Of a DNA stretch of 64,000 nucleotides, positions 48,752 to 63,707 are shown piece after piece. The translations under genes were made by a program, and so were the position numbers. Source of the stretch: Clostridia bacterium (lineage in GTDB: Bacteria > Bacillota > Clostridia > Christensenellales > Aristaeellaceae); contig JAFXRG010000005.1 of the NCBI GenBank assembly GCA_017526525.1, positions 1-64,000 on the forward strand, in the 5' to 3' direction. Numbering within the stretch: position 1 is the stretch's first letter; the number at the start of each line of letters is the position of its first letter. The notes beneath the pieces are model-generated. The model ran no database searches, was not told where the DNA came from, and saw nothing but the letters and a program-made list of their open reading frames with translations.

Positions 48752-48788
48752 AAAAGAAGCGGGCCGCGTCAGCGGCCCACTTTTCTTT
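48752..48788 (+). terminator. Terminator after the SIMPL gene
   Basis: GGGCCGC (48761-48767) and GCGGCCC (48772-48778) form a stable stem with loop GTCA, flanked by an A-rich 5-prime side and ACTTTTCTTT on the 3-prime side. It overlaps the last codons and stop of the convergent GGDEF gene. Confidence 0.75.
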
Positions 48789-50625
48789 CAGCTTTGATAT
48801 TGTACATCAGGACGTCGGCCTCCCGGATGCAGTCTTCCAGGGAGCGCTTCTGCTTTCGCTCGGAAAGGACGCAGCCCACGGAAAGCCCCAGCCGGAAAGG
48901 CTGGCCGGAGGTTTTGTTCCAGTCCTCGGCCGAGGCGAGAATGTCTTCCTGCAGAAAGGTTTTTTCCCCAGCGGCGATGACGACAAACTCATCCCCTCCG
49001 TAGCGCATGATAAAGTCTTCCTCGGAACAGTTTTTCCGCAGGATTTCCGCCACGGCGCAAAGGGCAGTATCGCCGGCTTCGTGCCCCCAGGTGTCATTGA
49101 TGATCTTCATATCGTCCATATCCGTGAACAGCACCAGCGCGCCGCCGTATTTCCGGATCATGCGGCTGTAGGTCTCCAGCCCGAAGCGCTGCAGGCCGAA
49201 ACGGTTATACAGCCCGGTGAGGCCGTCATGCACATACAGGTCGTCCAGCATTTCGTTGAAACGGCGGAGCAGCTCCTTTTTCCGGATGTTTTCAATGGCG
49301 ATTTCCAGGAAGTTGAAGATGCTTTCGTGCAAATTCATCTTTGCGGCTTCGCTCAGGCCGTCCATGGCAATATATCCGATGGAATAGGTGTTGTAATGCA
49401 GGGGATAGAAGATCAGGAAACGCTCCCGGGAAAGGTAGGGTTCCGGCAGCAGCTGCCGGGTGGGGAAACGCATATAATTGCGGCTGGCCAGTACCATTTC
49501 CTCGCCGTAGTCTTCAGAATCCTGGATCCATTCCGCTTTTTCGTAATTGTCAAAATAGTAATCGTTGAAGCAAAGAAAGATATCATGGCAGCCGAAGATC
49601 GACCGGTTCCGGAGCACCGCGGAGGTCAGGTCCTTCAGATTGTTGGCCTCAAAGAGCTCTTCAGCCAGCTGGCCCTGCGTCAGGTAGAAGGAACGGAGGA
49701 AACGGGTCTGCTGGAAATAGCGGTCCCGGATCATGCCGGGACGGGAGGAATCCGGACATCCGCAGGATTCAGAGGGGATGACGGCATGCTCCCCGTAAAT
49801 GACGGAGGGAACCCGCTGCCCTTCAATCATCCCGATCAGGGTTTCCATGGCCTGGAGATTCAGCAGGCGGTAATCGCAGAAAACAGAGGAAAGCCGGGGA
49901 CAGGAAAGCTCCGCGCTGTCCAGGTTGTCATAACCGGTAACGATCACATCGCCGGGAACGGAGATGTTGTTTTCCTGCAGGGCTCCCAGCATGCCCAGCG
50001 CCATTTCGTCATTGGCGCAGATGAACGCGTCGGGAAGCGGCAGGTCTTCCTCCAGCCACTGGCGGACCGTTTCCGTTCCATCGGTGGTCCGCCAGGTTTT
50101 TTCGAGAACCTGGATATCCTCCGAGGAAATACCGTTTTCCAGGCAGGCATCATGAAAACCGTTCAGCCGGTCTTTGGCTTCGGGGCAGTTGTTGTACAGG
50201 TTGCCGGTGAGGTAAACCAGCCGACGGGCGTGATGTTCCCGGATGACATGACTGACAATATCCCGCTGGGCCGACCGGTTGTCGTGAACAATGGAGACGC
50301 AGCCAGGCAGGGGACACCCGATGGACACGGCGGGAATGCCGGCCTCGTCAATCCTGCGGACCAGTTCATTCCGGACCCGCTCGAGAATAATCTGGTTTCC
50401 GAGAATGACCACACCGTCAAAGGTGTGCAAATCCGGAAGGGAAAAGATCCGGTATTCGCTTTTGTCCTTGGAATTGTCCTGATCTGTGCCGAAACAGTCA
50501 AAAATACGGAGGAACACATTCCGGTGAGCATCCGAGTACTGCTTCAGGCCGTGAAGGGTCTGGTCGACCAGCTCATAGTTCCAGTCGACGGCAAAATATG
50601 CAATCCGGTACGATCTGCCCGCCAA
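48769..50625 (-). CDS. Sugar-receptor (Peripla_BP-like)-GAF-GGDEF fusion
   Basis: Cytosolic 618-residue protein. Residues ~8-280 resemble the ligand domain of LacI regulators (YRIAYFAVDWNYE, DGVVILGNQ, CANDEMALGMLGAL, VTGYDNLDSAE) but there is no HTH. A GAF-like region follows (~300-440), then a GGDEF domain (~455-615) with intact RYGGDEF; the inhibitory RxxD site is absent (SEED). No signal peptide or TM is seen. I place the start at TTG 50625, 9 bp after GAAAAGAGG; the frame further upstream runs into the promoter. It probably couples a sugar or related ligand to cyclic di-GMP. Confidence 0.82.
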   Translation of the reverse strand: MAGRSYRIAYFAVDWNYELVDQTLHGLKQYSDAHRNVFLRIFDCFGTDQDNSKDKSEYRIFSLPDLHTFDGVVILGNQIILERVRNELVRRIDEAGIPAVSIGCPLPGCVSIVHDNRSAQRDIVSHVIREHHARRLVYLTGNLYNNCPEAKDRLNGFHDACLENGISSEDIQVLEKTWRTTDGTETVRQWLEEDLPLPDAFICANDEMALGMLGALQENNISVPGDVIVTGYDNLDSAELSCPRLSSVFCDYRLLNLQAMETLIGMIEGQRVPSVIYGEHAVIPSESCGCPDSSRPGMIRDRYFQQTRFLRSFYLTQGQLAEELFEANNLKDLTSAVLRNRSIFGCHDIFLCFNDYYFDNYEKAEWIQDSEDYGEEMVLASRNYMRFPTRQLLPEPYLSRERFLIFYPLHYNTYSIGYIAMDGLSEAAKMNLHESIFNFLEIAIENIRKKELLRRFNEMLDDLYVHDGLTGLYNRFGLQRFGLETYSRMIRKYGGALVLFTDMDDMKIINDTWGHEAGDTALCAVAEILRKNCSEEDFIMRYGGDEFVVIAAGEKTFLQEDILASAEDWNKTSGQPFRLGLSVGCVLSERKQKRSLEDCIREADVLMYNIKAERKVGR

Positions 50626-50668
50626 GAAACAGTACCTCTTTTCTGTCCGCAAATGGACTTTTTTTCTT

Positions 50669-50697
50669 ATTTTACGTGGTTTTGCGGAACTTGTCAA
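50669..50697 (-). promoter_or_regulatory. Promoter of the receptor-GGDEF gene
   Basis: On the minus strand TTGACA (50692-50697) and TAAAAT (50669-50674) spaced by 17 bp. Because the -35 lies at the apparent 5-prime end of the open frame, translation must begin further down, supporting the TTG start at 50625. Confidence 0.65.
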
Positions 50698-50731: not shown

Positions 50732-50827
50732 CTGCTAAAATGAAGAACGAAATTGCGGCGGCGCAAGGGGTATTTCATATGTATAAAAGCCGCAGTGCGG
50801 CATAACGTGAAAGGAGTCGGGAAGACT

Positions 50828-52177
50828 GTGAGAAACACTTTTCGCGGCGGAGTTCATCCGGAAGAGCACAAGGAGCTGAGCCGGGACGCGAAGCTGCGCC
50901 AGTTTGACCCGCAGGGAGAAATGGTATTTCCCCTGCAGCAGCACATCGGGAAACCCGCAAAAACAATTGTCCAGAAAGGGGATACCGTGCTGGTCGGCCA
51001 GCGGATTGCCGAGGCGGACGGCTTTGTGTCCGCGCATATCCATTCCAGCTGTTCCGGCAAGGTAAAGGCTGTGGAAAAACGGAGAGTGCTTACCGGCGGC
51101 ATGGCGGAATGCATCGTAATCGATAACGACCGGGAGTTTACTCCGTTCGCCGATTATTCCGTCCGCGACGATGAAGGCAACCTGTCCGAAAACGATATCA
51201 TCCAGAGGGTGCAGGACGCGGGCATTGTCGGCCTCGGCGGCGCGGGATTCCCGACGCATGTAAAACTGAAGCCGAAAGATCCGGAGGCTATTGAATACGT
51301 GATTGCCAACGGCGCGGAGTGTGAACCGTACCTGACCTGCAACGATCAGCTGATGCGGACCCAGGCGCCTGCCATCGTGGAAGGCCTGGAGCTGGTCCTG
51401 CGGCTGTTTCCCAATGCAACGGGCGTGATCTGCATTGAGGACAACAAGCCGGAGGCCATTCATGCCATGGAAATCGCCGCCTCCGGGAAAGCACGCATCA
51501 AGGTGCAGGCCATGATTACCAAGTATCCCCAGGGCGGTGAACGCAGCCTGATCCAGGCGGTAACGGGCATTGATTTCCCGATCAGCAAGCTGCCGGCGGA
51601 TGTGGGCTGCATTGTCCAGAACGTGGGAACCCTGATGGCCATCCAGCGGGCGGTGCTGTATCATGAACCGCTGTTCAGGCAGTGCTTTACCATGACCGGC
51701 GAAGCGGTCAGTGAGCCCTCCAATTTCATGGTCCGGGTGGGCACCTCCTATGCGGAGCTGCTGGAGGCCTGCGGCGGCATCAAACCCGGAACGGAAGCGG
51801 TCAAGGCGCTGGCGGGCGGACCCATGATGGGCATCGCCATGGGCAGCCTGGATGTTCCGGTGCAGAAGCAGAACAACGGCCTGACCCTGCTTGCGGAAGA
51901 CCCGGTGGCAGAAGCGGAAAAGATGATGACTGCCTGCCTGCACTGCGGCCGGTGTACAACGGTTTGCCCGGTGGGACTGATGCCCCAGCTGATGGCGGAC
52001 GCCGCCATTGCGGGGAACCTGGAAAGGTATGAGAAAAAACTGTACGGACTGGAATGCATTCAGTGCGGAAGCTGCACGGTGGCCTGCCCCGCAAAGCGGC
52101 CGCTGATGCAGACCTTCAAGCAGGCAAAAGCGGAAATTCAGGAGAAGAAAAAGCGTGAAGGAGGCGGTCAGAAATGA
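50828..52177 (+). CDS. rnfC: Rnf complex subunit C
   Basis: Membrane-associated NADH-binding, Fe-S subunit of the ion-translocating ferredoxin:NAD oxidoreductase, 449 residues. The N-terminus FRGGVHPEEHKEL, the GxGG NADH/FMN site GLGGAGFPTHVKL and two [4Fe-4S] motifs (CLHCGRCTTVCP, CIQCGSCTVACP) are diagnostic. I take GTG 50828 as start, after AAAGGAG; an upstream frame to 50753 lacks a site. Typical RnfC length supports this. First gene of the operon, overlapping the next by 4 bp. Confidence 0.92.
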   Translation: MRNTFRGGVHPEEHKELSRDAKLRQFDPQGEMVFPLQQHIGKPAKTIVQKGDTVLVGQRIAEADGFVSAHIHSSCSGKVKAVEKRRVLTGGMAECIVIDNDREFTPFADYSVRDDEGNLSENDIIQRVQDAGIVGLGGAGFPTHVKLKPKDPEAIEYVIANGAECEPYLTCNDQLMRTQAPAIVEGLELVLRLFPNATGVICIEDNKPEAIHAMEIAASGKARIKVQAMITKYPQGGERSLIQAVTGIDFPISKLPADVGCIVQNVGTLMAIQRAVLYHEPLFRQCFTMTGEAVSEPSNFMVRVGTSYAELLEACGGIKPGTEAVKALAGGPMMGIAMGSLDVPVQKQNNGLTLLAEDPVAEAEKMMTACLHCGRCTTVCPVGLMPQLMADAAIAGNLERYEKKLYGLECIQCGSCTVACPAKRPLMQTFKQAKAEIQEKKKREGGGQK

Positions 52178-53712
52178 ACGGTGTTCTGAATATCTCTTCA
52201 TCGCCTCATACGCGGGACAGATGGACCACTCCGTATATTATGCGCATGGTGGTCCTGAGCCTGCTGCCGGCGACTGTGGTGGGCATTGTGGTTCACGGAT
52301 GGCAGGCCTTCGGGATCATCGCGCTGGCCGTTGTGTCCGCGGTGGCCTCCGAGTGGGTTTTCAACAAGATCTGCCACAAACCGGATACCATCTGGGACGG
52401 CAGCGCGGCGGTTACGGGACTGCTGCTGGCCTTGTCCCTGGGACCGAAAACCCCGTTGTATATTCCGGTGATCGGTTCCGTGTTTGCCATTGTTGTGTGC
52501 AAGGGCTGCTTCGGCGGACTGGGCAAGAACTTCATTAACCCGGCGCTGGCCGCCCGGTGCTTCCTGCTGATTTCCTTTGCAAACGCCATGACCATCAAGC
52601 CCTCCCTGGACGCGGTTGCATCGGCAACCCCCGTGGGCGCGCTGAAAGCCCTGGAGCAGGTGGATATCACAAAGATGTTCCTGGGAACGGCGGACGGCGT
52701 CATCGGCAGCTCGATCCTGGCGCTGCTGGTGGGCGGTTTGCTGCTGTGGAGCCTGGATATCATTCACGGCCAGATTTGCTTCTCGGTGCTGATCGGCTTC
52801 ACGCTGCTGATCGGCCTGTTCGGCGGGGAAGGATTCAACCCGCGGTTCCTGCTGGCGCACCTGTGCGGCGGCGGCGTGGTGATGGGCGCCTTCTTTATGG
52901 CCACGGACTATGTGACCAGCCCGGTGAGCCGGCTGGGACAGTTTATTTACGGCTGCCTGATCGGCGTGCTGGGCGGTATTTTCCGCCTTTGGGGCAACAC
53001 GGCGGACTCCTTCAGCTATGCGATTATTATCGGCAATGTCTGCACGCCCCTGATTGACACGTATATTGTCCAGAAGCCCCTGGCATACCGGAAAGTCGGG
53101 AAGACCCGGCCGGTGAAGAAAGAACCTTTCCGGATTCCGCGGCCGGTGATTGCACTGACCATTATCGCGGCGCTGGCTGGACTGGCGCTGAGCGGAGTCT
53201 ATTCTGTCACCAAGGGCACCATCGAAGCCCAGGAGATTGCGAAGGAAACGGAAGCCTACAAGGCGGTCTGCCCCGACGCGGCATCCTTTGCCAACGCGGA
53301 CCAGGCGGAGAAAGCCCTGAAGGAATATGAAGGAAAAACCACCCGCGTCAACAAGGCGTATATCGCGAAGGACGCTGCCGGAAACACCATCGGATACGCG
53401 CTGAACGTGTCCTCCAAGGGATTCGGCGGAACCGTGACCCTGGCCATGGGCCTGACGGCAGACGGAAAGATTATCGGTATTTCCTTCACCGAACTGAATG
53501 AAACGGCCGGCCTGGGTATGAAGGCGGATGAACCTGCCTTCAGGGAACAGTTTAACGGCCGGGGCGGAGAGCTGATCCTGGTCAAGGGGACGGCCTCCGG
53601 TGAACAGGAAATCTGCGCGATCACCGGCGCATCCGTCACGTCCAACGCCGTGATCAGCGCCGTGAACGCCGGTCTCGACCTGTATGAGACAACGCTGAAA
53701 GGAGGCAACTAA
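52174..53712 (+). CDS. rnfD-rnfG: RnfD-RnfG fusion protein
   Basis: One continuous 512-residue frame. Residues ~1-315 are the RnfD membrane protein (about ten TM segments, DGSAAVTGLLLAL, FMN-acceptor region SATP with Thr152, GCFGGLGKNFINPA). Residues ~325-512 are an RnfG: one TM anchor (VIALTIIAALAGLALSG) followed by an exported FMN-binding domain with GFGGTVTLAMGL and the flavin-acceptor motif TGASVT (Thr489). In most rnf operons these are separate genes. The fusion keeps gene order C-(D/G)-E-A-B. No stop or frameshift is seen at the junction. Confidence 0.92.
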   Translation: MNGVLNISSSPHTRDRWTTPYIMRMVVLSLLPATVVGIVVHGWQAFGIIALAVVSAVASEWVFNKICHKPDTIWDGSAAVTGLLLALSLGPKTPLYIPVIGSVFAIVVCKGCFGGLGKNFINPALAARCFLLISFANAMTIKPSLDAVASATPVGALKALEQVDITKMFLGTADGVIGSSILALLVGGLLLWSLDIIHGQICFSVLIGFTLLIGLFGGEGFNPRFLLAHLCGGGVVMGAFFMATDYVTSPVSRLGQFIYGCLIGVLGGIFRLWGNTADSFSYAIIIGNVCTPLIDTYIVQKPLAYRKVGKTRPVKKEPFRIPRPVIALTIIAALAGLALSGVYSVTKGTIEAQEIAKETEAYKAVCPDAASFANADQAEKALKEYEGKTTRVNKAYIAKDAAGNTIGYALNVSSKGFGGTVTLAMGLTADGKIIGISFTELNETAGLGMKADEPAFREQFNGRGGELILVKGTASGEQEICAITGASVTSNAVISAVNAGLDLYETTLKGGN

Positions 53713-53714
53713 CC

Positions 53715-54443
53715 ATGAAAAAATACTGGGAACGCCTCTGGAACGGCCTGGTCAAGGAAAACCCGGTGCTGGTGCTGATGCTGGGCATGTGCCCGGCACT
53801 GGCGGTTTCCACCCAGGCGGCCAACGGCATCGGCATGGGCCTGAGCACCCTGGCGGTGCTGGTGCTGAGCAACCTGGTAATCAGCTGCCTGCGGAAGGTA
53901 ATTCCGGACCAGGTCCGGCTGCCTGCGTACATTGTGATTGTGGCCAGCCTGGTGACGGTGACGGAACTGCTGATCAAGGCATACCTGCCTTCTCTGTATG
54001 AGGAACTGGGAATCTACATTCCCCTGATTGTTGTTAACTGCATTATCCTGGGCCGGGCGGAAGCCTATGCCAACAAGCATACGCCTGTGCTGTCCATGCT
54101 GGACGGCATCGGCATGGGCCTGGGCTTCACGGCGGCGCTGACCCTGGCCGGCGCAATCCGGGAACTGCTGGGAACCGGAAAGATTTTCGGAGCCCAGCTG
54201 CTGCCGGAAGGCTTCGGTATGACGATTTTCATCCAGCCTCCGGGAGCTTTCCTGGTGTTCGCGCTGATTATCGCGGTGATGAATGCCATCGGCATCAAAA
54301 CCCGCCAGCGCAAACTGGTGGAAAGCGGGTGCGACGGGAACTGTTCCCTGTGCGCTTCCGCCGCCTCCTGTGACACGAAGTCCGCAGAGGAGAAAAAACC
54401 GGATCCGGACCGGAAGGATGCGAAAGGAGGAGAGCAGAAATGA
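53715..54443 (+). CDS. rnfE: Rnf complex subunit E
   Basis: Integral membrane subunit, 242 residues, about six TM segments, with NPVLVLMLGMCPALAVSTQA at the N-terminus and VNCIILGRAEAYANK, typical of RnfE/NqrD. The conserved Cys residues that hold the intramembrane Fe-S cluster with RnfA are in GMCPAL and VNCIIL. A charged C-terminal tail of ~35 residues with several Cys (CDGNCSLCASAASC) is an unusual addition. It overlaps rnfA by 4 bp. Confidence 0.93.
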   Translation: MKKYWERLWNGLVKENPVLVLMLGMCPALAVSTQAANGIGMGLSTLAVLVLSNLVISCLRKVIPDQVRLPAYIVIVASLVTVTELLIKAYLPSLYEELGIYIPLIVVNCIILGRAEAYANKHTPVLSMLDGIGMGLGFTAALTLAGAIRELLGTGKIFGAQLLPEGFGMTIFIQPPGAFLVFALIIAVMNAIGIKTRQRKLVESGCDGNCSLCASAASCDTKSAEEKKPDPDRKDAKGGEQK

Positions 54444-55018
54444 AAAGCCTGATTATGATTATCATTGCGGGCGCGCTGATCAACAACGTTGTGCTGAATC
54501 AGTTCCTGGGCATCTGCTCCTTCCTGGGCGTCAGCAAGCAGATGAAAGCCTCCATCAGCCTGGGCGGAGCCGTGATTTTCGTGATCACCATTGCCTCCGC
54601 CGTGGCCAGCCTGCTGTATGACTATGTGTTGCAGCCGCTGGGCATGGACTTCATGAAGACGATTATCTTCATCCTGGTGATTGCGGCCCTGGTCCAGATT
54701 GTCGAAATGTTCCTGAAAAAGAAATCCCCCGCGGTTTACAATGCGCTGGGAATCTACCTGCCCCTGATTACCACCAACTGCGCGGTGCTGGGCGTGGCCC
54801 TGACCAATGTGCAGGACGGATACAACTTTATTCAGTGTGTGGCAAGCGGCTTCGGAACAGCCGTGGGGTACACCATTGCCATCGTGCTGCTGGCGGGCAT
54901 CCGCAGCCGGATCAACGAGAAGGACCTTCCGGCGCCGCTGCGGGGCGCTCCCATCGTGATGATTGCCGCGGCCCTGATGTCCATCGCGTTTATGGGCTTT
55001 GGCGGACTGAATCTGTAA
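54440..55018 (+). CDS. rnfA: Rnf complex subunit A
   Basis: Integral membrane subunit, 192 residues, six TM segments, with NNVVLNQFLGICSFLGVS and TTNCAVLGVAL, the two Cys-bearing segments conserved in RnfA/NqrE. It forms the inner membrane core with RnfE and RnfD and lies between rnfE and rnfB with overlapping start. Confidence 0.95.
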   Translation: MKSLIMIIIAGALINNVVLNQFLGICSFLGVSKQMKASISLGGAVIFVITIASAVASLLYDYVLQPLGMDFMKTIIFILVIAALVQIVEMFLKKKSPAVYNALGIYLPLITTNCAVLGVALTNVQDGYNFIQCVASGFGTAVGYTIAIVLLAGIRSRINEKDLPAPLRGAPIVMIAAALMSIAFMGFGGLNL

Positions 55019-55031
55019 GGAGGGTCGGGAA

Positions 55032-55823
55032 ATGGATATTATCTGGATTACGACCCTGGTAATTGCCGTGATCGGTATCGTGGTTGCGGCCGGCCTGGTC
55101 TTCACGGGAAAAAAGTTTGCCGTGAAGGTGGATGAAAAAGTGGTGGCGGTTCGTGAAAAACTGCCCGGAAACAACTGCGGCGCCTGCGGATATGCCGGCT
55201 GCGACGCCCTTGCGAATGCCATCGCGAAGGGAGAGGCGGAAGTGAACGCCTGCCCGGTGGGCGGCGCGCCGGTGGCGGAGGCCATCGGATACATCATGGG
55301 GAAAACCGCCGGAACGATGGAACGGAAAACGGCCTTTGTTGCCTGCAAGGGCACCTGCAACGTAACGAAGAACCAGGGCAATTACATCGGAATCAAAGAC
55401 TGCCGGGCCGCCGTGCTGTCCGGAATGAATGTAACGGACTGCACCTATGGATGCCTGGGCTTCGGCAGCTGCGCGGAAGTTTGTCCGGAACAGGCTATTT
55501 CCGTCCAGAACGGGGTGGCGGTTGTGAACCGGAGCCGCTGCGTGAGCTGTGGCCTGTGCGCCAAGGTATGCCCCAGGGGACTGATCTCCCTGATTCCGGA
55601 AAGCCGGATTATCCGCGTACAGTGCTCCAACCGGGACAAGGGTCCGCAGGTCAAGAAGGTCTGTGCGGCCGGCTGTATCGGATGCGGCCTCTGTGCGAAG
55701 CAGTGTGAATCGGATGCGATTGAGTTTGACGGAACCCTGGCACGGGTCAATCCTGAAAAATGTACGCTGTGTGGGAAGTGCGTGGCGAAGTGCCCGGCAA
55801 AAGTCATTACGACCCCGGTCTGA
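55032..55823 (+). CDS. rnfB: Rnf complex subunit B
   Basis: Ferredoxin-interacting subunit, 263 residues. A single N-terminal TM segment is followed by the Rnf Fe-S domain with CGACGYAGCDALA, then ferredoxin-type clusters CTYGCLGFGSCAEVCP, CVSCGLCAKVCP, CIGCGLCAKQC and CTLCGKCVAKCP. It receives electrons from reduced ferredoxin or returns them. RBS AGGAGGG. The next gene begins 20 bp downstream. Confidence 0.95.
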   Translation: MDIIWITTLVIAVIGIVVAAGLVFTGKKFAVKVDEKVVAVREKLPGNNCGACGYAGCDALANAIAKGEAEVNACPVGGAPVAEAIGYIMGKTAGTMERKTAFVACKGTCNVTKNQGNYIGIKDCRAAVLSGMNVTDCTYGCLGFGSCAEVCPEQAISVQNGVAVVNRSRCVSCGLCAKVCPRGLISLIPESRIIRVQCSNRDKGPQVKKVCAAGCIGCGLCAKQCESDAIEFDGTLARVNPEKCTLCGKCVAKCPAKVITTPV

Positions 55824-55842
55824 GCGGAAAGGGGAGAAAAGC

Positions 55843-57084
55843 ATGAACGAGTTTAAGAAAAAGCAGTGGGCCAGAATCGGGCTGAGCCTGATTGCCCTGA
55901 TCGCTGCGTCCCTGTTTCTGACCGGACTGGCGGGCGGAAAAAACATGACGTACAGGATCGGGGACGGAGCCCCGGAGGTTACGGCCAGCGAACAGGGCTT
56001 CGGCGGCAAGGTGACGGTGCACGCGGTGCTGAACGGGGACAAGACCATCAAAACCCTGAGCATTGATACGCCGGACGAAACCGCGGGACTCGGGCAGCGG
56101 GCGTCGGAGGAAGAGTTTACCGGCCAGTTTATCGGCAAGGCAGGTCCCTTTGCTTTCGGCGAAGACGGCATTGAAGCCCTGAGCGGTGCAACGGTCACGT
56201 CCAACGCGGCCCTGAAGGCGCTCAACAACGTGCTGTCGGGAGAGCCGGCGGAAGAGAAGCCCGCAGAGGAAAAGCCTGCGGAAGAGAAACCGGCGGAAGA
56301 GAAACCGGCGGAAGAGAAGCCCGCAGAGGAAAAACCCGCAGAGGAAAAACCAGCGGAAGAGAAGCCCGCGGAAACGGCCGGGGAGGATGCGATGACGCTT
56401 TCCTCCAGCGCCCAGGGCTTCGGCGGAAAAGTGACAGTGCACGCGGTGCTGAAGGATGACAATACCATTCAGAGCCTGACCATTGATACACCGGACGAAA
56501 CCGCGGGCCTGGGCCAGCGGGCGTCGGAAGAAGCGTTTACGAGCCAGTTCATCGGCAAGACCGGGCCTTTCACCTACGGCAAGGACGGCATTGAAGCGCT
56601 GAGCGGCGCAACGGTCACTTCCGAAGCGGCCCTGAAGGCCATCAACATCGCGGTGGCGGGAGAGACCGGGGAAGAGAAACCCGCGGAGGAAAAGCCCGCA
56701 GAAGAAAAGCCCGCGGAAGAGAAGCCTGAGGAAGAGAAACCCGCGGAAGAAAAAAACGCGGAAACGCCTGCCGCCGTCGAAAAGGCTGAAAAGACGCCGG
56801 CGATGTTCGGCGGATATCTGTCGGTGAAAGAAACGGAATACAGCGTGATCCGGGTGATTGTCAGCACGAAGAACGGCGTCATCACCGGCTGTACCATTAC
56901 TTCCGAGGAAAAGAGCAAGGGCAGCGATTTCCTGAAGGATTCAATCCGGAAAGAGTGGGCGGATGCCATTGTCGCCGCGCAGACCGCGGAGACGGACGCG
57001 ATCACCGGCGCCACCCTGAAGCTTTCTTCCGCGGCTGTGCGGGAAGCTGTTGCAGAGCTTCTTGAGACCATCGGCGGAAAGTAA
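55843..57084 (+). CDS. Membrane-anchored protein with three FMN-binding-type modules
   Basis: Exported, N-terminally anchored protein of 413 residues (TM about 10-30). Modules 1 and 2 (about 36-130 and 180-270) are RnfG-like FMN-binding domains that are close copies, both with GFGGKVTVHAVL, DETAGLGQRASEE and the flavin-acceptor motif SGATVT (Thr119 and Thr259). Module 3 (~315-413) is diverged and its motif TGATLK has Lys where the acceptor Thr should be. Linkers are AEEKP repeats. The start MNEFKK follows AAAGGGGAG. As the sixth gene of the rnf operon it probably carries electrons outside the membrane. Flavin attachment would need an ApbE, not seen here. Confidence 0.85.
   Translation: MNEFKKKQWARIGLSLIALIAASLFLTGLAGGKNMTYRIGDGAPEVTASEQGFGGKVTVHAVLNGDKTIKTLSIDTPDETAGLGQRASEEEFTGQFIGKAGPFAFGEDGIEALSGATVTSNAALKALNNVLSGEPAEEKPAEEKPAEEKPAEEKPAEEKPAEEKPAEEKPAEEKPAETAGEDAMTLSSSAQGFGGKVTVHAVLKDDNTIQSLTIDTPDETAGLGQRASEEAFTSQFIGKTGPFTYGKDGIEALSGATVTSEAALKAINIAVAGETGEEKPAEEKPAEEKPAEEKPEEEKPAEEKNAETPAAVEKAEKTPAMFGGYLSVKETEYSVIRVIVSTKNGVITGCTITSEEKSKGSDFLKDSIRKEWADAIVAAQTAETDAITGATLKLSSAAVREAVAELLETIGGK
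56245..56370 (+). repeat. 15-bp coding tandem repeat (first AEEKP linker)
   Basis: About eight tandem copies encode Ala-Glu-Glu-Lys-Pro, with synonymous GAA/GAG and CCC/CCG changes between copies. It links FMN modules 1 and 2. The reading frame is preserved throughout. Confidence 0.85.
56671..56760 (+). repeat. 15-bp coding tandem repeat (second AEEKP linker)
   Basis: About five to six further copies, with one changed unit, link FMN modules 2 and 3. The repeat period and composition match the first linker, consistent with module-plus-linker duplication. Confidence 0.82.
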
Positions 57085-57167: not shown

Positions 57168-58391
57168 ATGATGAAAAAAATCCTGGCAGTCCTGGTGTGC
57201 CTGACGCTGATCACAGGAGGGGTTACGGCAATGGCGGAATACAAGGAGGAAGCCTGGTACACGAACGCGATGAAGGAGTGCGAGGTGTCCCTGGGGAATA
57301 ACCTGCGGCTGAAAAAGGTGATTGAACGGGCTCAAAGCGGGGAACAGATTACCATCGGCACGGTGGGCGGATCCATTACGGAAGGCGCCCTGGCGTCGAA
57401 ATACGATGAGTGCTGGGCCATGCGGTTCGCGAAGCTGTTCGGGGAAACTTACGGAACCGAAGGCGGAACAAATGTGGTCCTGGTGAATTCCGGGGTGGGA
57501 GGAACCCCTTCGCCTTTCGGATATATGCGTTACGGCCGGGATATTCTTGACCGGGTTCCGGAGACGGATCCGGACGGATATCCGGATATTGTGGTGATCG
57601 AATATGCCGTGAACGACTGGGCGGAGCCCACCGGCTGCCGCTGCTATGAGTCCATGGTGAAGGAAATCCTGGGCCAGCCCAACGAACCGGCGGTGATCCT
57701 CCTGTTCTCAGCGAGAAACGACGGATGGAACGTGCAGAATGAGCTGCAGAAAATCGGCAGCCGCTACGACCTGCTGATGGTGTCCGTGCGGGACGGCATC
57801 TATCCCCACCTGGACAAGGATTATCCGAAAAAGAACTTCTATGCGGATGAATACCATCCCAGTTCCATCGGCCACGGCATGATGGCGGACGCCATGATGC
57901 AGGCGATCGCGGATGCCAGCGCCGCAGAGACCGCCGCGGCGGACATCAATCCGGATGTGAAGCCGGTATACGGAACGGATTTCATGGGGCTGAAAACCAT
58001 TTACGGGGAAGGCAAAACGGAAGGCGTTACCGTGGTGCGCGGAAGCTTTGACAAGATCGACAAGACCGCGTACAGCAACACGCCGGTGGGCCTGGTCTGC
58101 GGCAAGAATTTCTGCCACGGCGTTTCGTCGGGAACGGATCCCATGACCGTGACCGGGGTGTTTGCGAAATGCCTGATCGCCTGGAAGGCTGCCGCCGAGG
58201 ATACGTACGGCACCGCCGAGGTATATGTGGACGGCACCCGGAAGGCGACGCTGCGCGGCGGAAACGGGAAATGGGGCCAGAGCGAGGTTGTGCTGGTGCT
58301 GGACGATGCGGAAGCCGCGGAACACACGGTGGAAATCCGTGTGGTCGGGCAAGGCAAACGGTTTACGGTGACCGCTGTGAGCGTCCTGTAA
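57168..58391 (+). CDS. Secreted SGNH/GDSL-type esterase
   Basis: Exported serine hydrolase of 407 residues; signal peptide to about VTAMA-EY. SGNH blocks are GGSITEG (nucleophilic Ser, block I), SGVGGTPS (block II Gly), YAVNDW (block III Asn) and DEYHPSSIGH (block V Asp-His). Residues ~265-407 form a beta-rich C-terminal region, perhaps a binding module. Enzymes of this type often deacetylate pectin or xylan, which suits the window, but the substrate is not shown. ATG at 57168 or 57171; GGAGGAG lies upstream. It stands alone between the rnf terminator and the T-box. Confidence 0.83.
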   Translation: MMKKILAVLVCLTLITGGVTAMAEYKEEAWYTNAMKECEVSLGNNLRLKKVIERAQSGEQITIGTVGGSITEGALASKYDECWAMRFAKLFGETYGTEGGTNVVLVNSGVGGTPSPFGYMRYGRDILDRVPETDPDGYPDIVVIEYAVNDWAEPTGCRCYESMVKEILGQPNEPAVILLFSARNDGWNVQNELQKIGSRYDLLMVSVRDGIYPHLDKDYPKKNFYADEYHPSSIGHGMMADAMMQAIADASAAETAAADINPDVKPVYGTDFMGLKTIYGEGKTEGVTVVRGSFDKIDKTAYSNTPVGLVCGKNFCHGVSSGTDPMTVTGVFAKCLIAWKAAAEDTYGTAEVYVDGTRKATLRGGNGKWGQSEVVLVLDDAEAAEHTVEIRVVGQGKRFTVTAVSVL

Positions 58392-58440
58392 AGACGGAGA
58401 AGCGGGTACAGCAAAAATGCATTCCGAAACGGGAAAAGGC

Positions 58441-58470
58441 TTGACAACCGGTTTTGAGGAGTGTTAGAAT
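58441..58470 (+). promoter_or_regulatory. Promoter of the T-box/acyl-CoA ligase transcription unit
   Basis: TTGACA (58441-58446) and TAGAAT (58465-58470) with an 18-bp spacer. Transcription would start near 58477, just before the T-box stem I. Confidence 0.72.
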
Positions 58471-58477
58471 ACGCGTA

Positions 58478-58737
58478 ATTTCATACAAGGCGATGACGAA
58501 GACGGAACAGCAGGAGGTCCCACAGAGAGCCGGGAACGGTGTGAACCGGCGGACTGAAGCTTCATCCCATCACTTCCGAGCCGGAGATCCGAACGGTTCT
58601 GCTCAGTAGGCGTCTCCCGTGAATGCTGCGTGAATGCATAGGGCATGTCAGTGCCTGAAGAGGTGTGGAAAACACACAATTTGAGTGGTACCGCGAGTCA
58701 TATGACCCGTCTCAAAGAAGAGACGGGTCATTTTTTT
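58478..58737 (+). ncRNA. T-box riboswitch upstream of an acyl-CoA ligase
   Basis: A full T-box leader. Stem I contains the AGAGA bulge (58524-58528) and the distal element GGTGTGAACCGGC. The antiterminator has the conserved TGGTACCGCG (58686-58695), with TGGT available to pair with an uncharged tRNA NCCA end. The terminator is a 12-bp stem 58702-58713/58720-58731 with a T-run to 58737. Uncharged tRNA should turn on the downstream gene. The best specifier codon is TTC (Phe) at 58561-58563, because it follows the GA of the specifier loop and is followed by a purine; I could not fold stem I fully, so the identity is uncertain. Confidence 0.92.
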
Positions 58738-58752
58738 GAAAGGAGAACCCCT

Positions 58753-61023
58753 ATGAATACTCAGACCGATCTCAGCCAGCTCAGCGCCATCGCATCCCGA
58801 CTGAGGGAAATGCGGGAAATTATGGGCTGGACCGTGGAGGAAATGGCGGCCAAAACGGAGGTTTCCGCGGAGGATTACCGGCTGTATGAAGCCGGCAGGA
58901 CCGATATGCCCTTCACCTTCATTTACAAATCCGCCCAGGCCTTCAACATGGAACTGACGGAGCTGCTGGAAGGACACAACGCGTTCCTGTCTTCCTATAC
59001 GGTTACCCGCCGCGGCAAGGGTGAATCCACCGCCCGGGAGGAAGGCATCGCCATTTCCAACCTGGCGCCCAAATTCCGGGACAAGATTGCGGAGCCCTAC
59101 TGGGTCCGGTATGAATATTCCGAAAAACAGCAGCAGGAACCGATTCACCTGACCACCCACCGGGGACAGGAGTTCGACCTGGTGCTGCAGGGAAGCCTGA
59201 AGGTGCAGGTGGGGGATCACACGGAAATCCTGCACGAAGGCGACAGCATTTATTACAATTCCTCCCTGCCCCACGGCATGATCGCCGTGGAAGGAAAGGA
59301 CTGCGTTTTCTGCGCGGTGGTGCTGCCCGGGGAAGGAACGCAGGTCGAAGAAGCTGCAACGGCCCAGCCGGTCCCGGCCCGGACGGAACAGCACCTGATT
59401 GCCGAAAAGTTTGTGGACGCCACGGAGGACGAACAGGGACGCCTGACCGCCATCCGGTTCCTGCATGAGGATACCTTCAATTTCGGCTTTGATATCGTGG
59501 ATGAAATTGCCCGGAAATATCCGGACAAGCTGGCCATGCTCTATGTGGATAAACACCATCAGGAACGCCGGTTTACCTTCAAGGATATCAAGGACGCCTC
59601 CAACCAGTGCGCCAACTACTTTACTTCCCTGGGCATCCGCCGGGGAGACCGGGTGATGCTGGTGCTGAAACGCCACTATCAGTTCTGGTTCTCCATGGTG
59701 GCGCTGCACAAGCTGGGAGCCATTGCCATTCCGGCCACCAACCAGCTGAAGGAACACGACTTTGAATACCGCTTCAAATCCGCCGGCGTGAAGGCCCTGA
59801 TCTGCACGGCGGACGGGGATACGGCGGAGATTGCGGAGCGGGCCGCCGCCGGCTGCCCGACGGTGCAGACGCTGATCATGGTGAACGGAAACCGGGAAGG
59901 CTGGCACAGCTTCAATGATGAATATCCGCTGTTTACCCGCCGCTTCCATCGCCAGGAGGACAGTTCCTGCGGCAATGACATTGCCCTGATGTTCTTTACT
60001 TCCGGCACCACCGGCAACCCGAAGATGGCGGCCCACAAGCATACCTACGCGCTGGGCCACTATGTGACGGCCAAGTACTGGCACTGCTGCGAGCGGGAAG
60101 GACTGCACCTGACCATCTCCGATACGGGATGGGGCAAGTCCCTGTGGGGCAAGCTTTACGGACAATGGATGTGCGAAGGCGCGGTGTTTGTTTATGACTT
60201 TGACAAGTTTGACGCCGCGGACATCCTGCCGATGTTCGCAAAGTATAACATTACAACCTTCTGCGCGCCGCCGACCATGCTGAGGATGCTGATCAAGGAA
60301 AACCTGGCCAACTATGACCTGTCCTCCATTCACCACATGACCACCGCCGGCGAGGCGCTGAACCCGGAGGTGTTCCGGCAGTTTGAAAAAGCCACGGGAC
60401 TGAAAATCATGGAAGGCTTCGGCCAGACGGAAACCACCCTTACCATCGGCAACCTGTACGGAGGCGTTCCGAAGATCGGTTCCATGGGAAAGGCCAATCC
60501 CCAGTACAAGGTGGACATCGTGGATCCGGACGGAAATCCGGTGGCCAACGGCGAGGTTGGCGAAATCGTGATTCATACGGACGAGGAAACGCCCTGCGGC
60601 CTGTTCCGCGAATACTACCTGGATGGGGAAAAAACCGCGGATGCATGGCACGACGGCCTCTATCATACCGGAGATACGGCCTGGCGGGATGAGGACGGCT
60701 ATTTCTGGTATGTGAGCCGGATTGACGACGTTATCAAGTCTTCCGGATACCGGATCGGGCCGTTCGAAATCGAAAGCGTCATCATGGAGCTGCCCTATGT
60801 GCTGGAGTGCGGCGTATCCGCCGAACCGGACGAGATCCGCGGACAGATTGTGAAGGCTTCCATTGTGCTGACCAAGGGAACGGTGGGCACGGAGGAGCTG
60901 AAAAAGGAAATCCAGCAGTATGTCAAGCAGCATACCGCTCCCTACAAGTATCCCCGGAAGATTGTTTTCCGGGACGAGCTTCCCAAAACCATTTCCGGCA
61001 AGATCCAGCGCAACCTGCTGTGA
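58753..61023 (+). CDS. XRE-HTH/cupin/AMP-forming acyl-CoA ligase fusion
   Basis: Protein of 756 residues. Residues ~12-73 are an XRE-type HTH (LREMREIMGWTVEEMAAK), ~110-195 a cupin (HRGQEFDLVLQGSLKVQ), and ~215-756 an AMP-forming acyl-CoA synthetase with TSGTTGNPKMA (about residue 416), EGFGQTET, YHTGDTAWRDEDGY and the C-terminal catalytic Lys750 in SGKIQR. The ligase part resembles medium-chain/aryl acyl-CoA ligases (MACS group). ATG start with AAAGGAG, 16 bp after the T-box terminator. Control by a T-box ties it to amino-acid supply. It is convergent with a 2-oxoacid:ferredoxin oxidoreductase operon. The acid substrate is unknown. Confidence 0.9.
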   Translation: MNTQTDLSQLSAIASRLREMREIMGWTVEEMAAKTEVSAEDYRLYEAGRTDMPFTFIYKSAQAFNMELTELLEGHNAFLSSYTVTRRGKGESTAREEGIAISNLAPKFRDKIAEPYWVRYEYSEKQQQEPIHLTTHRGQEFDLVLQGSLKVQVGDHTEILHEGDSIYYNSSLPHGMIAVEGKDCVFCAVVLPGEGTQVEEAATAQPVPARTEQHLIAEKFVDATEDEQGRLTAIRFLHEDTFNFGFDIVDEIARKYPDKLAMLYVDKHHQERRFTFKDIKDASNQCANYFTSLGIRRGDRVMLVLKRHYQFWFSMVALHKLGAIAIPATNQLKEHDFEYRFKSAGVKALICTADGDTAEIAERAAAGCPTVQTLIMVNGNREGWHSFNDEYPLFTRRFHRQEDSSCGNDIALMFFTSGTTGNPKMAAHKHTYALGHYVTAKYWHCCEREGLHLTISDTGWGKSLWGKLYGQWMCEGAVFVYDFDKFDAADILPMFAKYNITTFCAPPTMLRMLIKENLANYDLSSIHHMTTAGEALNPEVFRQFEKATGLKIMEGFGQTETTLTIGNLYGGVPKIGSMGKANPQYKVDIVDPDGNPVANGEVGEIVIHTDEETPCGLFREYYLDGEKTADAWHDGLYHTGDTAWRDEDGYFWYVSRIDDVIKSSGYRIGPFEIESVIMELPYVLECGVSAEPDEIRGQIVKASIVLTKGTVGTEELKKEIQQYVKQHTAPYKYPRKIVFRDELPKTISGKIQRNLL

Positions 61024-61125: not shown

Positions 61126-61668
61126 TTACAGCCCGGCCACTGCCGCCTGTCCCTTTTCCATGGCCTGGCGGTTGATGGGAAGGAGATGCTCCTTCTTCGG
61201 GCCGAAGGTGGATTTCAGGGCTTCCATGGCGGAATCGATGGAGACTACGCCGGTTTTCTGCAGGATGGCGCCCAGCATTACCATGTTGGCGGTGCGGGCA
61301 TTGCCCAGCGCCTCGGCGATTCCGTTGCAGTCCACCGGGATGGCGGTAATGTCATCCCGGTCGGGTTTAATATCGATCAGGGAGGAGTTGTACAGCATGA
61401 TGCCGCCCTTTTCCATTGCGGGGGTGAACTTGATCATGCTGGGCTTGTTCATGATCACGGCGATCGGGATTTCCGTCACCAGCGGAGAACCGATGGGCTC
61501 ATCGGAAATGACCACGGCGCAGTTGGCTTCGCCGCCGCGCATTTCGGGACCGTAGGAAGGCATCCAGGAAACGTTCATGCCCTCGTGCATGGCTGCCTTG
61601 GCCAGCAGCTGTCCGATCAGCAGTACGCCCTGCCCGCCGAAACCGGCAATCAGGAATTGAGCTTCCAT
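61126..61668 (-). CDS. 2-oxoacid:ferredoxin oxidoreductase, gamma subunit
   Basis: Subunit of 180 residues with the gamma-domain opening FLIAGFGGQGVLLIGQLLA and SYGPEMRGGEANC. Four-subunit enzymes of this type (VOR/KGOR) convert 2-oxoacids, CoA and oxidised ferredoxin to acyl-CoA, CO2 and reduced ferredoxin, reversibly. Last gene of the operon, 3 bp after the beta subunit. Confidence 0.92.
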   Translation of the reverse strand: MEAQFLIAGFGGQGVLLIGQLLAKAAMHEGMNVSWMPSYGPEMRGGEANCAVVISDEPIGSPLVTEIPIAVIMNKPSMIKFTPAMEKGGIMLYNSSLIDIKPDRDDITAIPVDCNGIAEALGNARTANMVMLGAILQKTGVVSIDSAMEALKSTFGPKKEHLLPINRQAMEKGQAAVAGL

Positions 61669-62411: not shown

Positions 62412-63488
62412 TTATTTCCCCTCCTTTGCCAGCGTTTCGACCTGGGTGATGATTTCCCGCACGGTGGGCACAATGCCGCCGGTGCGGCCGAAGAAGTGAA
62501 CGGGCTTTTTGCCTTCCACCGCCAGTTTCACATCATCCACCATCTGGCCCATGCTCATTTCCACCGTCAGGAAAGCATTGGCGTGTTCGGCGGCTTTGGC
62601 AATCGGCGCCGCGGGGAAGGGCCACAGGGTGATCGGGCGGATCAGGCCGGCCCGGATGCCTTCTTCCCGGAGCTTGCGCATGGCGCTGCGGGCAATGCGG
62701 GCGGTGGTTCCGTAGGCTACGATGACATAATCGGCGTCTTCCGTCATTTCCTCCTGCCAGCGGCATTCGGTCTGCTCCATGACGGCGTATTTTTCATACA
62801 GGTGGTTGACATGCTTTTCCAGTACGGCGGGATCGATGTACAGGGAATTGATGACCGCCCGGTCCCTGCCGCAGCCGGGCTTCCAGCCGGTGGCAGCCCA
62901 GGTTTTGGGCGGCAGATCGGTCCGCTCTTTCCGCTCGGGCATTTCCACGGGCTCCATCATCTGGCCGATGAGGCCGTCCCCCATGATGAGCACGGGATTC
63001 CGGTATTTGTCCGCCAGGTCAAAGGCTTCCTGGGTCAGCTCCACGGCTTCCTGCACGGAAGAAGGGGCCAGCACCAGCATCCGGTAGTCGCCGTGGCCGC
63101 CGCCGCGGGTGGACTGGTAATAGTCGCTCTGGGCGGGCTGGATGGAACCGAGTCCGGGGCCGCCGCGTACCATGTTGACGATGACGCAGGGAAGCTCCGC
63201 ACCGACAATATAGCTGATGCCTTCCTGCTTCAGGGAAATTCCCGGGCTGGAAGAAGAGGTCATGACCCGGGCGCCGGCACCGGCAGCACCGTAGACCATA
63301 TTGATGGCGGCAACTTCGCTTTCCGCCTGCAGGAAACAGCCGCCCTCGATTTTCGGCAGCCGTTTGGACATGTATTCGGGAATCTGGTTCTGGGGGGTAA
63401 TGGGGTAACCAAAGAAGAAGCGGCATCCGGCCTGGATGGCGGCTTCGGCGATGGCCTCATTTCCCTTCATGAGCATTTTCTGACCCAT
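62412..63488 (-). CDS. vorB: 2-oxoacid:ferredoxin oxidoreductase, alpha subunit (VorB-like)
   Basis: Alpha subunit of 358 residues with [31 protein letters not shown]-type opening, [30 protein letters not shown] and RGGPGLGS, as in VorB/KorA proteins. Branched-chain 2-oxoacid specificity (3-methyl-2-oxobutanoate) is the usual annotation for this type; arylpyruvate or 2-oxoglutarate cannot be excluded. Start ATG with GGAGGAAG. It follows the ferredoxin subunit by 15 bp. Confidence 0.92.
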
Positions 63489-63503: not shown

Positions 63504-63707
63504 TTATTTTTCGACTTTAATGACAGCATCCGGGCACATCCGCGCACAGAAGGCACACCCGATGCACTGATCCTGCTGTTCAATCCCGATGGGATGATAA
63601 CCTTTGGCGTTGATCTCCCGGCTGAGCGCCAGAAGGTGTTTGGGACAAACCTCGGCACACAGACCGCAGCCCTTGCAGGTCTCCCGGTCGATGGTCAGTC
63701 TGGCCAT
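63504..63707 (-). CDS. 2-oxoacid:ferredoxin oxidoreductase, delta (ferredoxin) subunit
   Basis: Small 67-residue ferredoxin with two [4Fe-4S] motifs, CKGCGLCAEVCPKH and CIGCAFCARMCPD, that passes electrons between the TPP subunits and free ferredoxin. The start MARLTIDRE follows AAAGGAGGCGG; the open frame extends 25 codons upstream into the promoter. First gene of the operon. Confidence 0.93.
   Translation of the reverse strand: MARLTIDRETCKGCGLCAEVCPKHLLALSREINAKGYHPIGIEQQDQCIGCAFCARMCPDAVIKVEK

Follow-up and report, generated by a model that had tools for sequence, protein, structure and literature searches.

Why would a switch that reads the charging of a transfer RNA (tRNA) stand ahead of a gene for an acyl-coenzyme A (CoA) ligase, and which amino acid does it read? 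The question is raised by a 64,000-nucleotide stretch of Clostridia bacterium DNA (assembly GCA_017526525.1, contig JAFXRG010000005.1, positions 1 to 64,000; hereafter the window), in which a T-box leader precedes a gene that we call LigA. An original prediction had read the locus as a phenylalanine T-box controlling an anabolic ligase for phenylacetate. We retain from it an anabolic ligase under a T-box, and not phenylalanine or phenylacetate. With a probability of about 0.85, uncharged tRNA-Ile would turn on the activation of 2-methylbutyrate for isoleucine synthesis, and a paralogue, LigB, would likewise activate isobutyrate for valine. Gene functions throughout, the direction in which the 2-oxoacid:ferredoxin oxidoreductase (Vor) runs, and the response to starvation are predicted from sequence. 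The features of the locus are as follows:

58441 to 58470, plus strand: sigma-70-like promoter, TTGACA-18-TAGAAT, 11 of 12 consensus matches
58484 to 58717, plus strand: T-box leader, RF00230, 70.0 bits, E 2.7e-15
58489 to 58501, plus strand: stem I base, 5' half (GGC, GATGAC, GAAG), pairing with 58573-58582
58569 to 58571, plus strand: specifier AUC (isoleucine), from homologous leaders, followed by A at 58572 and the closing helix CTTC at 58573-58576
58573 to 58582, plus strand: stem I base, 3' half (CTTC, CGA, GCC), from covariation and RNAalifold
58680 to 58717, plus strand: antiterminator with the T-box bulge UGGUACC (58686-58692), from the fold and UGGU conservation
58702 to 58737, plus strand: intrinsic terminator with a T run, 12 pairs, 7 of them G-C
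58753 to 61023, plus strand: LigA, predicted 2-methylbutyrate--CoA ligase, 756 residues

The T-box leader of the ligase gene

A scan of the whole window at gathering scores listed no Rfam match, and the T-box was found by a local scan (cmscan of 58380-58800). The match covers the RF00230 model in full (positions 1-219 of 219) and falls short of its gathering score of 93. In a genome search at E up to 10, the same model also matched in 10 of 14 control genomes, and we did not regard a weak score by itself as sufficient for a T-box call. The T-box ahead of the ligase gene is nevertheless confirmed as real, its full-length match standing below the Rfam cut-off. Together with the Pfam domains of 58753-61023, this bears out the original prediction that a T-box precedes an adenosine monophosphate (AMP)-forming acyl-CoA ligase.

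Scans of the same segment returned the promoter as their sole promoter match (shuffle mean 0.1) and a sole terminator match at 58702-58731 (shuffle mean 0.5). The antiterminator, UUUGAG-[UGGUACC]-GCG...CGUCUCAAA, and the terminator have folding energies of -8.7 and -21.0 kcal/mol, and the segment CCCGTCTCAAAG is common to both, making the two structures mutually exclusive. Unconstrained folding of the window's leader alone did not yield a usable T-box structure (z -1.16), whereas an alignment of 46 leaders did. It was observed that UGGU is present in 139 of 139 readable leaders of LigA and LigB. A UGGU bulge fits a tRNA with A73, and in the relative G022 it is complementary to A73 of both tRNA-Ile(GAU) and tRNA-Val. 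In the window's own, incomplete genome, 30 of 34 tRNA loci were scanned and no tRNA-Ile was found among them; one tRNA-Val (GAC) of G000, to which the script gives C73 in a shifted register, was not relied on.

Which amino acid the specifier names

The specifier was read from homologous leaders because the cmscan alignment by the Rfam T-box model leaves it undecided. A scan of the collection gave at least 594 stretches, at least 590 of them from relatives; the best 80 were retained, nearly all metagenome-assembled genomes, many with animal-gut sample names. With loci of further relatives, the leader set comprised 84 LigA and 76 LigB genes with an N-terminus. A script searched for the base of stem I (C...GA.NNNN pairing NNNN.GAGC, or a close variant of it) and took as specifier the triplet that precedes the spacer base; since it requires a closing helix of four pairs (helix 2), its rows are biased towards pairing there. 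We found that the specifier is ATC in all 76 readable LigA leaders, preceded by C (45), T (29) or A (2) and followed by A (41), C (31) or G (4). In LigB it is a valine codon (GUN) in 63 of 63 readable leaders (GUA 55, GUC 7, GUG 1), the variation being confined to the third codon base.

RNAalifold was run with no structure supplied on 46 leaders, the window's own together with one in three of the 133 readable plus-strand ones. It recovered the same basal helices and left the 3' side of the loop with five unpaired bases, N-AUC-N or N-GUN-N. In this set the two basal helices are paired in 99.4% of cells and show both-side changes at 5 of 7 pairs, values that were each reached by 0 of 500 shuffles; further pair types, one of the five measures, were not above shuffles. 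Stem I with its closed specifier loop is backed by this covariation. The GATGAC of its base is presumably K-turn-like. Counted from the end of the specifier bulge, AUC at 58569-58571 takes up positions 2-4, to which TBDB gives priority, and AUC accounts for 99% of the isoleucine specifiers in that database (PMC7778990).

Only the AUC/GUN frame, out of three, yields one amino acid in both the LigA and the LigB set. The -1 frame was dropped, as it gives histidine in 45, tyrosine in 29 and asparagine in 2 of the LigA leaders; tRNA-His has C73. The +1 frame would make the LigA leader a serine (UCN) switch, and it does read serine in 76 of 76 LigA leaders, but in LigB the same frame gives a stop in 55, serine in 7 and tryptophan in 1. 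Serine would not need the A of AUC, which is invariant, the single tRNA-Ser with a readable end has G73, which would give no more than a G-U pair with UGGU, and the TBDB priority for bulge positions 2-4 also speaks against this frame. We consider a serine switch highly improbable.

The phenylalanine specifier had been placed at TTC, position 58561, and with it went a phenylacetate ligase and a route to phenylalanine. TTC does exist at 58561-58563, eight bases upstream of the specifier, but this is outside the specifier loop, which reads AUC. It stands at that exact place in 2 of the 76 readable leaders, and anywhere in the 12 bases before the specifier in 27 of 76. A73 is common to tRNA-Phe and tRNA-Ile and favours neither, so that it is the specifier that discriminates between them. 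The carboxylation chemistry from phenylacetate to phenylalanine has precedent, and the benzoate-CoA ligase family comes seventh among the NCBIfam matches of LigA (232.7 bits). Against these points, no phenylacetate-CoA ligase model is among the best 25 of 105 NCBIfam families, the cluster partners described below are branched-chain enzymes, and the nearest characterised enzymes favour 2-methylbutyrate. We therefore abandon phenylacetate as the substrate and give the phenylalanine route next to no weight.

As a control on specifier reading, we took 36 T-boxes from the window's genome and from three relatives with near-complete genomes; a similar script read 20 of them, and some of the remaining 16 were read by eye, as tryptophan, threonine, cysteine and leucine. 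The script readings include UGG with UGGC ahead of trpE (L003, L177) and a proline codon ahead of proS (L195), and the readings by eye include ACC with UGGA ahead of thrS (L006, L196) and UGC with UGGA ahead of cysS (L176). In G022, tRNA-Thr and tRNA-Cys carry U73, and tRNA-Ile, Val, Phe and Pro(UGG) carry A73, matching what UGGA and UGGU require; the tRNA Pro CGG of this genome, with a shifted acceptor register, was not relied on.

LigA and LigB are 61% identical in the window's genome. In a protein tree of 153 of the 160 LigA and LigB sequences (the 7 under 700 amino acids were left out), the LigA side holds 74 isoleucine specifiers, 7 genes with none and 0 valine, and the LigB side 60 valine, 12 with none and 0 isoleucine, both with a branch support of 100. 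By sequence, the two ligases are separate clades, each with its own specifier amino acid and no mixture.

Predicted substrates and the proposed route to isoleucine and valine

LigA consists of a helix-turn-helix (HTH, residues 15-74), a cupin (128-189), an AMP-binding (250-622) and an AMP-binding_C domain (672-750), and its HTH_19, Cupin_2, AMP-binding and AMP-binding_C matches each exceed the Pfam cut-off. For both LigA and LigB the best NCBIfam model is MbcS (NF047394; 446.7 and 430.1 bits), the methylbutyryl-CoA synthetase of Staphylococcus aureus, and the two proteins probably work like MbcS without being members of its equivalog family. MbcS has an apparent Km below 10 uM for 2-methylbutyrate and isobutyrate and above 500 uM for isovalerate (PMC10026030). 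The closest solved structure to LigA by sequence is 3etc (620.6 bits; runner-up 328.5), the medium-chain acyl-CoA synthetase MacsMa of Methanosarcina acetivorans, whose preferred acyl substrate is 2-methylbutyrate (PMC10455477). The aligned MacsMa chain of 580 residues matches LigA from residue 232, whereas LigA adds the N-terminal HTH and cupin. From these likenesses and the specifiers we infer the acid used by each ligase, 2-methylbutyrate for LigA and isobutyrate for LigB; MbcS activates both acids, whereas here each acid would have its own enzyme and its own switch. The CoA esters of these acids would give isoleucine and valine by one carboxylation and one transamination. The ligase is widespread: of 393 genomes sampled from the class, the window's own among them, 69 have a match at E up to 1e-250.

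The window also holds Vor genes, which are convergent with LigA:

61126 to 61668, minus strand: VorG-like gamma subunit of a 2-oxoacid:ferredoxin oxidoreductase, PF01558, 141 bits
61672 to 62409, minus strand: Vor beta subunit, thiamine pyrophosphate (TPP)-binding, PF02775; in NCBIfam, 2-oxoacid ferredoxin oxidoreductase beta models rank first, at scores under their cut-offs
62412 to 63488, minus strand: Vor alpha subunit, NF005507 (3-methyl-2-oxobutanoate dehydrogenase subunit VorB), scoring 565 bits against a cut-off of 399
63504 to 63707, minus strand: 2x[4Fe-4S] ferredoxin-like subunit, Fer4_7

In other gut Clostridia, we found a cluster in the order isoleucine T-box and LigA, valine T-box and LigB, ATPase, ferredoxin and VorABG, often with a branched-chain aminotransferase. 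VorA lies downstream on the same strand in 48 of the 55 LigA loci whose downstream sequence reaches 7 kb or more, and 42 of the 55 have both LigB and VorA; one of the 7 loci without Vor downstream has it elsewhere in the locus. At the 52 loci with at least 7.5 kb, it was observed that a ParA-like ATPase, a ferredoxin and VorA are each present in 45, LigB in 40, a branched-chain aminotransferase in 37, a leuA-like gene in 13 and an AMP-ligase fused to a TIM barrel in 8. One of the cluster aminotransferases scores above the NF009897 and TIGR01123 cut-offs. A VorA orthologue is carried by 17 of the 18 genus genomes searched, own included. With Vor, a ferredoxin and often an aminotransferase in the relatives' cluster, the anabolic role foreseen by the original prediction, through carboxylation to a 2-oxoacid and transamination, is likely.

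The canonical pathway was followed through ilvC and ilvD. PF01450 (ilvC, ketol-acid reductoisomerase) was found in 0 of the 37 genus genomes searched, 10 of 24 order members outside the genus and 14 of 14 controls. The window's own genome is 63.7% complete; G022 and G035 each consist of one contig and are 97% complete. An earlier search of 12 genomes (own and 11 ligase-bearing relatives) found neither ilvD nor ilvC. PF00920 (ilvD family) matched 5 of the 37 genus genomes at 359.5-372.2 bits in frames of 596-652 amino acids, whereas the top matches of the 10 ilvC-bearing relatives score 426.0-468.1 bits, and the genus matches are probably other dehydratases of the family. Because these muddy the ilvD family signal, ilvC was taken as the main marker. 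Across the 24 order members, each from a different family, any ligase match (E up to 1e-100) tended not to occur together with ilvC (table rows 1, 10 and 9, 4; p 0.0045) or with the ilvD family (rows 2, 9 and 12, 1; p 0.0005), in tests that ignore relatedness.

LigA might instead supply branched acyl-CoA to membrane fatty acids, the control by isoleucine being indirect. Its best NCBIfam match is after all MbcS, whose known role is to supply branched-chain fatty acid synthesis (PMC10026030). Such a role would not call for paralogues with different amino-acid-specific T-boxes, and it sits poorly with the co-location of Vor and the aminotransferase and with the absence of ilvC from the genus. We judge it unlikely as the explanation, and the fatty-acid and amino-acid uses of LigA may coexist.

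Several results weigh against the route from 2-methylbutyrate to isoleucine. Neither LigA nor LigB reaches the NF047394 cut-off of 850. No readable T-box was found for 8 of the 84 LigA genes; a core is present in two of the eight (L052, whose leader is short, and L113, where ATC was read by eye), and for the other six no T-box was found, one having just 249 bases upstream and one being a remnant. Likewise, 13 of the 76 LigB genes were unread, 5 of which carry a core. In the window Vor is not under a T-box, the only one on the contig being the LigA leader, and Vor stood beside LigA in 0 of 7 LigA regions from seven genus relatives. A VorA homologue (63-67% identity) is also present in 2 of 7 ligase-negative order members. 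Five of the 11 ligase-bearing genomes compared above have no full-length fused ligase, and when just the 6 that have one are counted as ligase-bearing, the comparison gives p 0.34 for ilvC (rows 1, 5 and 9, 9) and p 0.05 for the ilvD family (rows 1, 5 and 13, 5). The exclusion between ligase and ilv genes depends on the cut chosen and is suggestive, for which reason we lowered our probability for the best explanation from 0.87 to 0.85. The absence of ilvC across the 37 genus genomes may also be a single loss.

Under the isoleucine route, the locus would work as follows. At isoleucine shortage, uncharged tRNA-Ile(GAU) would pair twice with the leader, at the AUC of stem I and, through its A73-CCA end, at the UGGU of the antiterminator, so that no terminator would form and LigA would be made. 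LigA would convert 2-methylbutyrate, a deamination product of other microbes, to 2-methylbutyryl-CoA, which Vor with reduced ferredoxin would carboxylate to 2-oxo-3-methylvalerate, and a branched-chain aminotransferase would convert this to isoleucine. LigB, under its own valine T-box, would lead from isobutyrate to valine by the equivalent route. The opposite direction, in which Vor oxidises branched 2-oxoacids and the ligase acts on the products, draws on the reversibility of Vor-type enzymes. A switch that comes on at amino acid shortage has the wrong sign for catabolism, however, and AMP-forming ligases run towards the thioester; we consider this direction very unlikely.

The leader shares stem I with its specifier loop, the AG bulge, the UGGN antiterminator and the competing terminator with known transcriptional T-boxes (RF00230). 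It differs in its target, an acyl-CoA ligase, whereas the known targets in the literature examined are tRNA synthetases, amino acid synthesis and transport, and in that two paralogues of one cluster are under two specifiers. The reactions have been described in the rumen, where isoleucine is made from 2-methylbutyrate and valine from isobutyrate. This synthesis from branched acids in rumen anaerobes was reported about half a century ago; Robinson and Allison 1969 and Allison and Peel 1971 are cited for the carboxylation (PMC2812497, PMC7356843). What is proposed here is which genes carry out the route in these Clostridia and how they are controlled. The passages of PMC2700814 examined give a T-box ahead of leuA alone, and the main texts of PMC2494555, PMC7778990, PMC11477304 and PMC12452182 contain no word starting with "CoA". 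Among the papers listed by literature searches, no title or abstract brought a T-box together with such a ligase, and an earlier mention in Vitreschak 2008 or Gutierrez-Preciado 2009 is possible. The T-box and the reaction route are known, while no counterpart was seen in the literature within reach for the combination of the two, nor for a pair of paralogues that carry different specifiers. Since the switch names the amino acid, and hence the likely acid for each ligase, the candidate route genes are directly testable. If true, the route would account from sequence for the need of such bacteria for their neighbours' branched acids and would add a new type of enzyme to the T-box targets.

Ligase architecture, neighbouring genes and other T-boxes

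In the window, the HTH-cupin part (58753-59320) is fused to the ligase, and this N-terminal part of the ligases looks like an XRE-cupin transcription factor. A single polypeptide may thus act as the enzyme that forms the acyl-CoA and as the sensor of the acid, with RNA control by product and protein control by substrate. We hold this reading to be somewhat less likely than not, having lowered our estimate because the exclusion between fused ligase and ilvC, taken by itself, lacks significance. In 20 regions with more distant ligase matches, no T-box was readable by script; L210 has a T-box core without a readable stem I upstream of the ligase, and L201 has a core elsewhere in the locus. Ten of the 20 have an HTH-cupin match directly ahead of the ligase match, and in one of these, L210, the two form a single open frame. 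In L200, L201, L204, L206, L207 and L213-L216, tblastn placed the HTH-cupin match just upstream of the ligase, without a readable T-box, and upstream of some distant ligases it looks like a separate gene. This suggests that the fusion arose from a regulator-enzyme pair. At L063 (7600-8000), the T-box of a LigA gene looks decayed by eye, with a remnant of the antiterminator core and stem I gone.

The leuA-like gene of the cluster has a LeuA_dimer domain and scores below the leuA cut-offs. A CUC (leucine) T-box lies in or beside the cluster at 9 loci; the leuA-like gene was matched right after it in 5, and the other 4 loci end within about 250 bases. In L217 (7306-11177), L218 (7017-10894), L049 (2249-6210) and L134 (2259-6240), the neighbour of the leuA-like gene is the AMP-ligase with the fused TIM barrel, which is xylose-isomerase-like. 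This pair is preceded by a CUC T-box in L049 and L134 and, by eye, by a CUG T-box in the window's genus. The fused ligase may activate isovalerate. The leuC marker is ambiguous (11 of 12 genomes match, 0 above cut-off), and we therefore make no claim on whether leucine comes through isopropylmalate or isovalerate. Examples of the ParA/CbiA-like ATPase are found at L095 (12899-13573) and L134 (11557-12258); the L049 copy, when tested, had no NCBIfam match.

Upstream of the leader, the window carries one further set of genes that touches the proposed route:

50753 to 57084, plus strand: Rnf complex genes, Pfam

The set comprises RnfC, RnfD (52174-53712) with a fused flavin mononucleotide (FMN)-binding domain, two Rnf-Nqr membrane subunits, an RnfB-kind iron-sulfur subunit and an FMN-binding protein, and Rnf could be the source of reduced ferredoxin for the pathway. 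The FMN-binding protein, which follows the Rnf genes at 55846-57084, has long PAEEK-type repeats between its FMN-binding domains. On the minus strand, 48769-50697 encodes a LacI-type periplasmic-binding-protein-like sensor part with a C-terminal GGDEF domain. Finally, at L001 (G000:C60), we observed a UAC (tyrosine) T-box ahead of a PutP/SSS-kind sodium/solute symporter, with a TPP riboswitch nearby on the opposite strand; this symporter may carry tyrosine.

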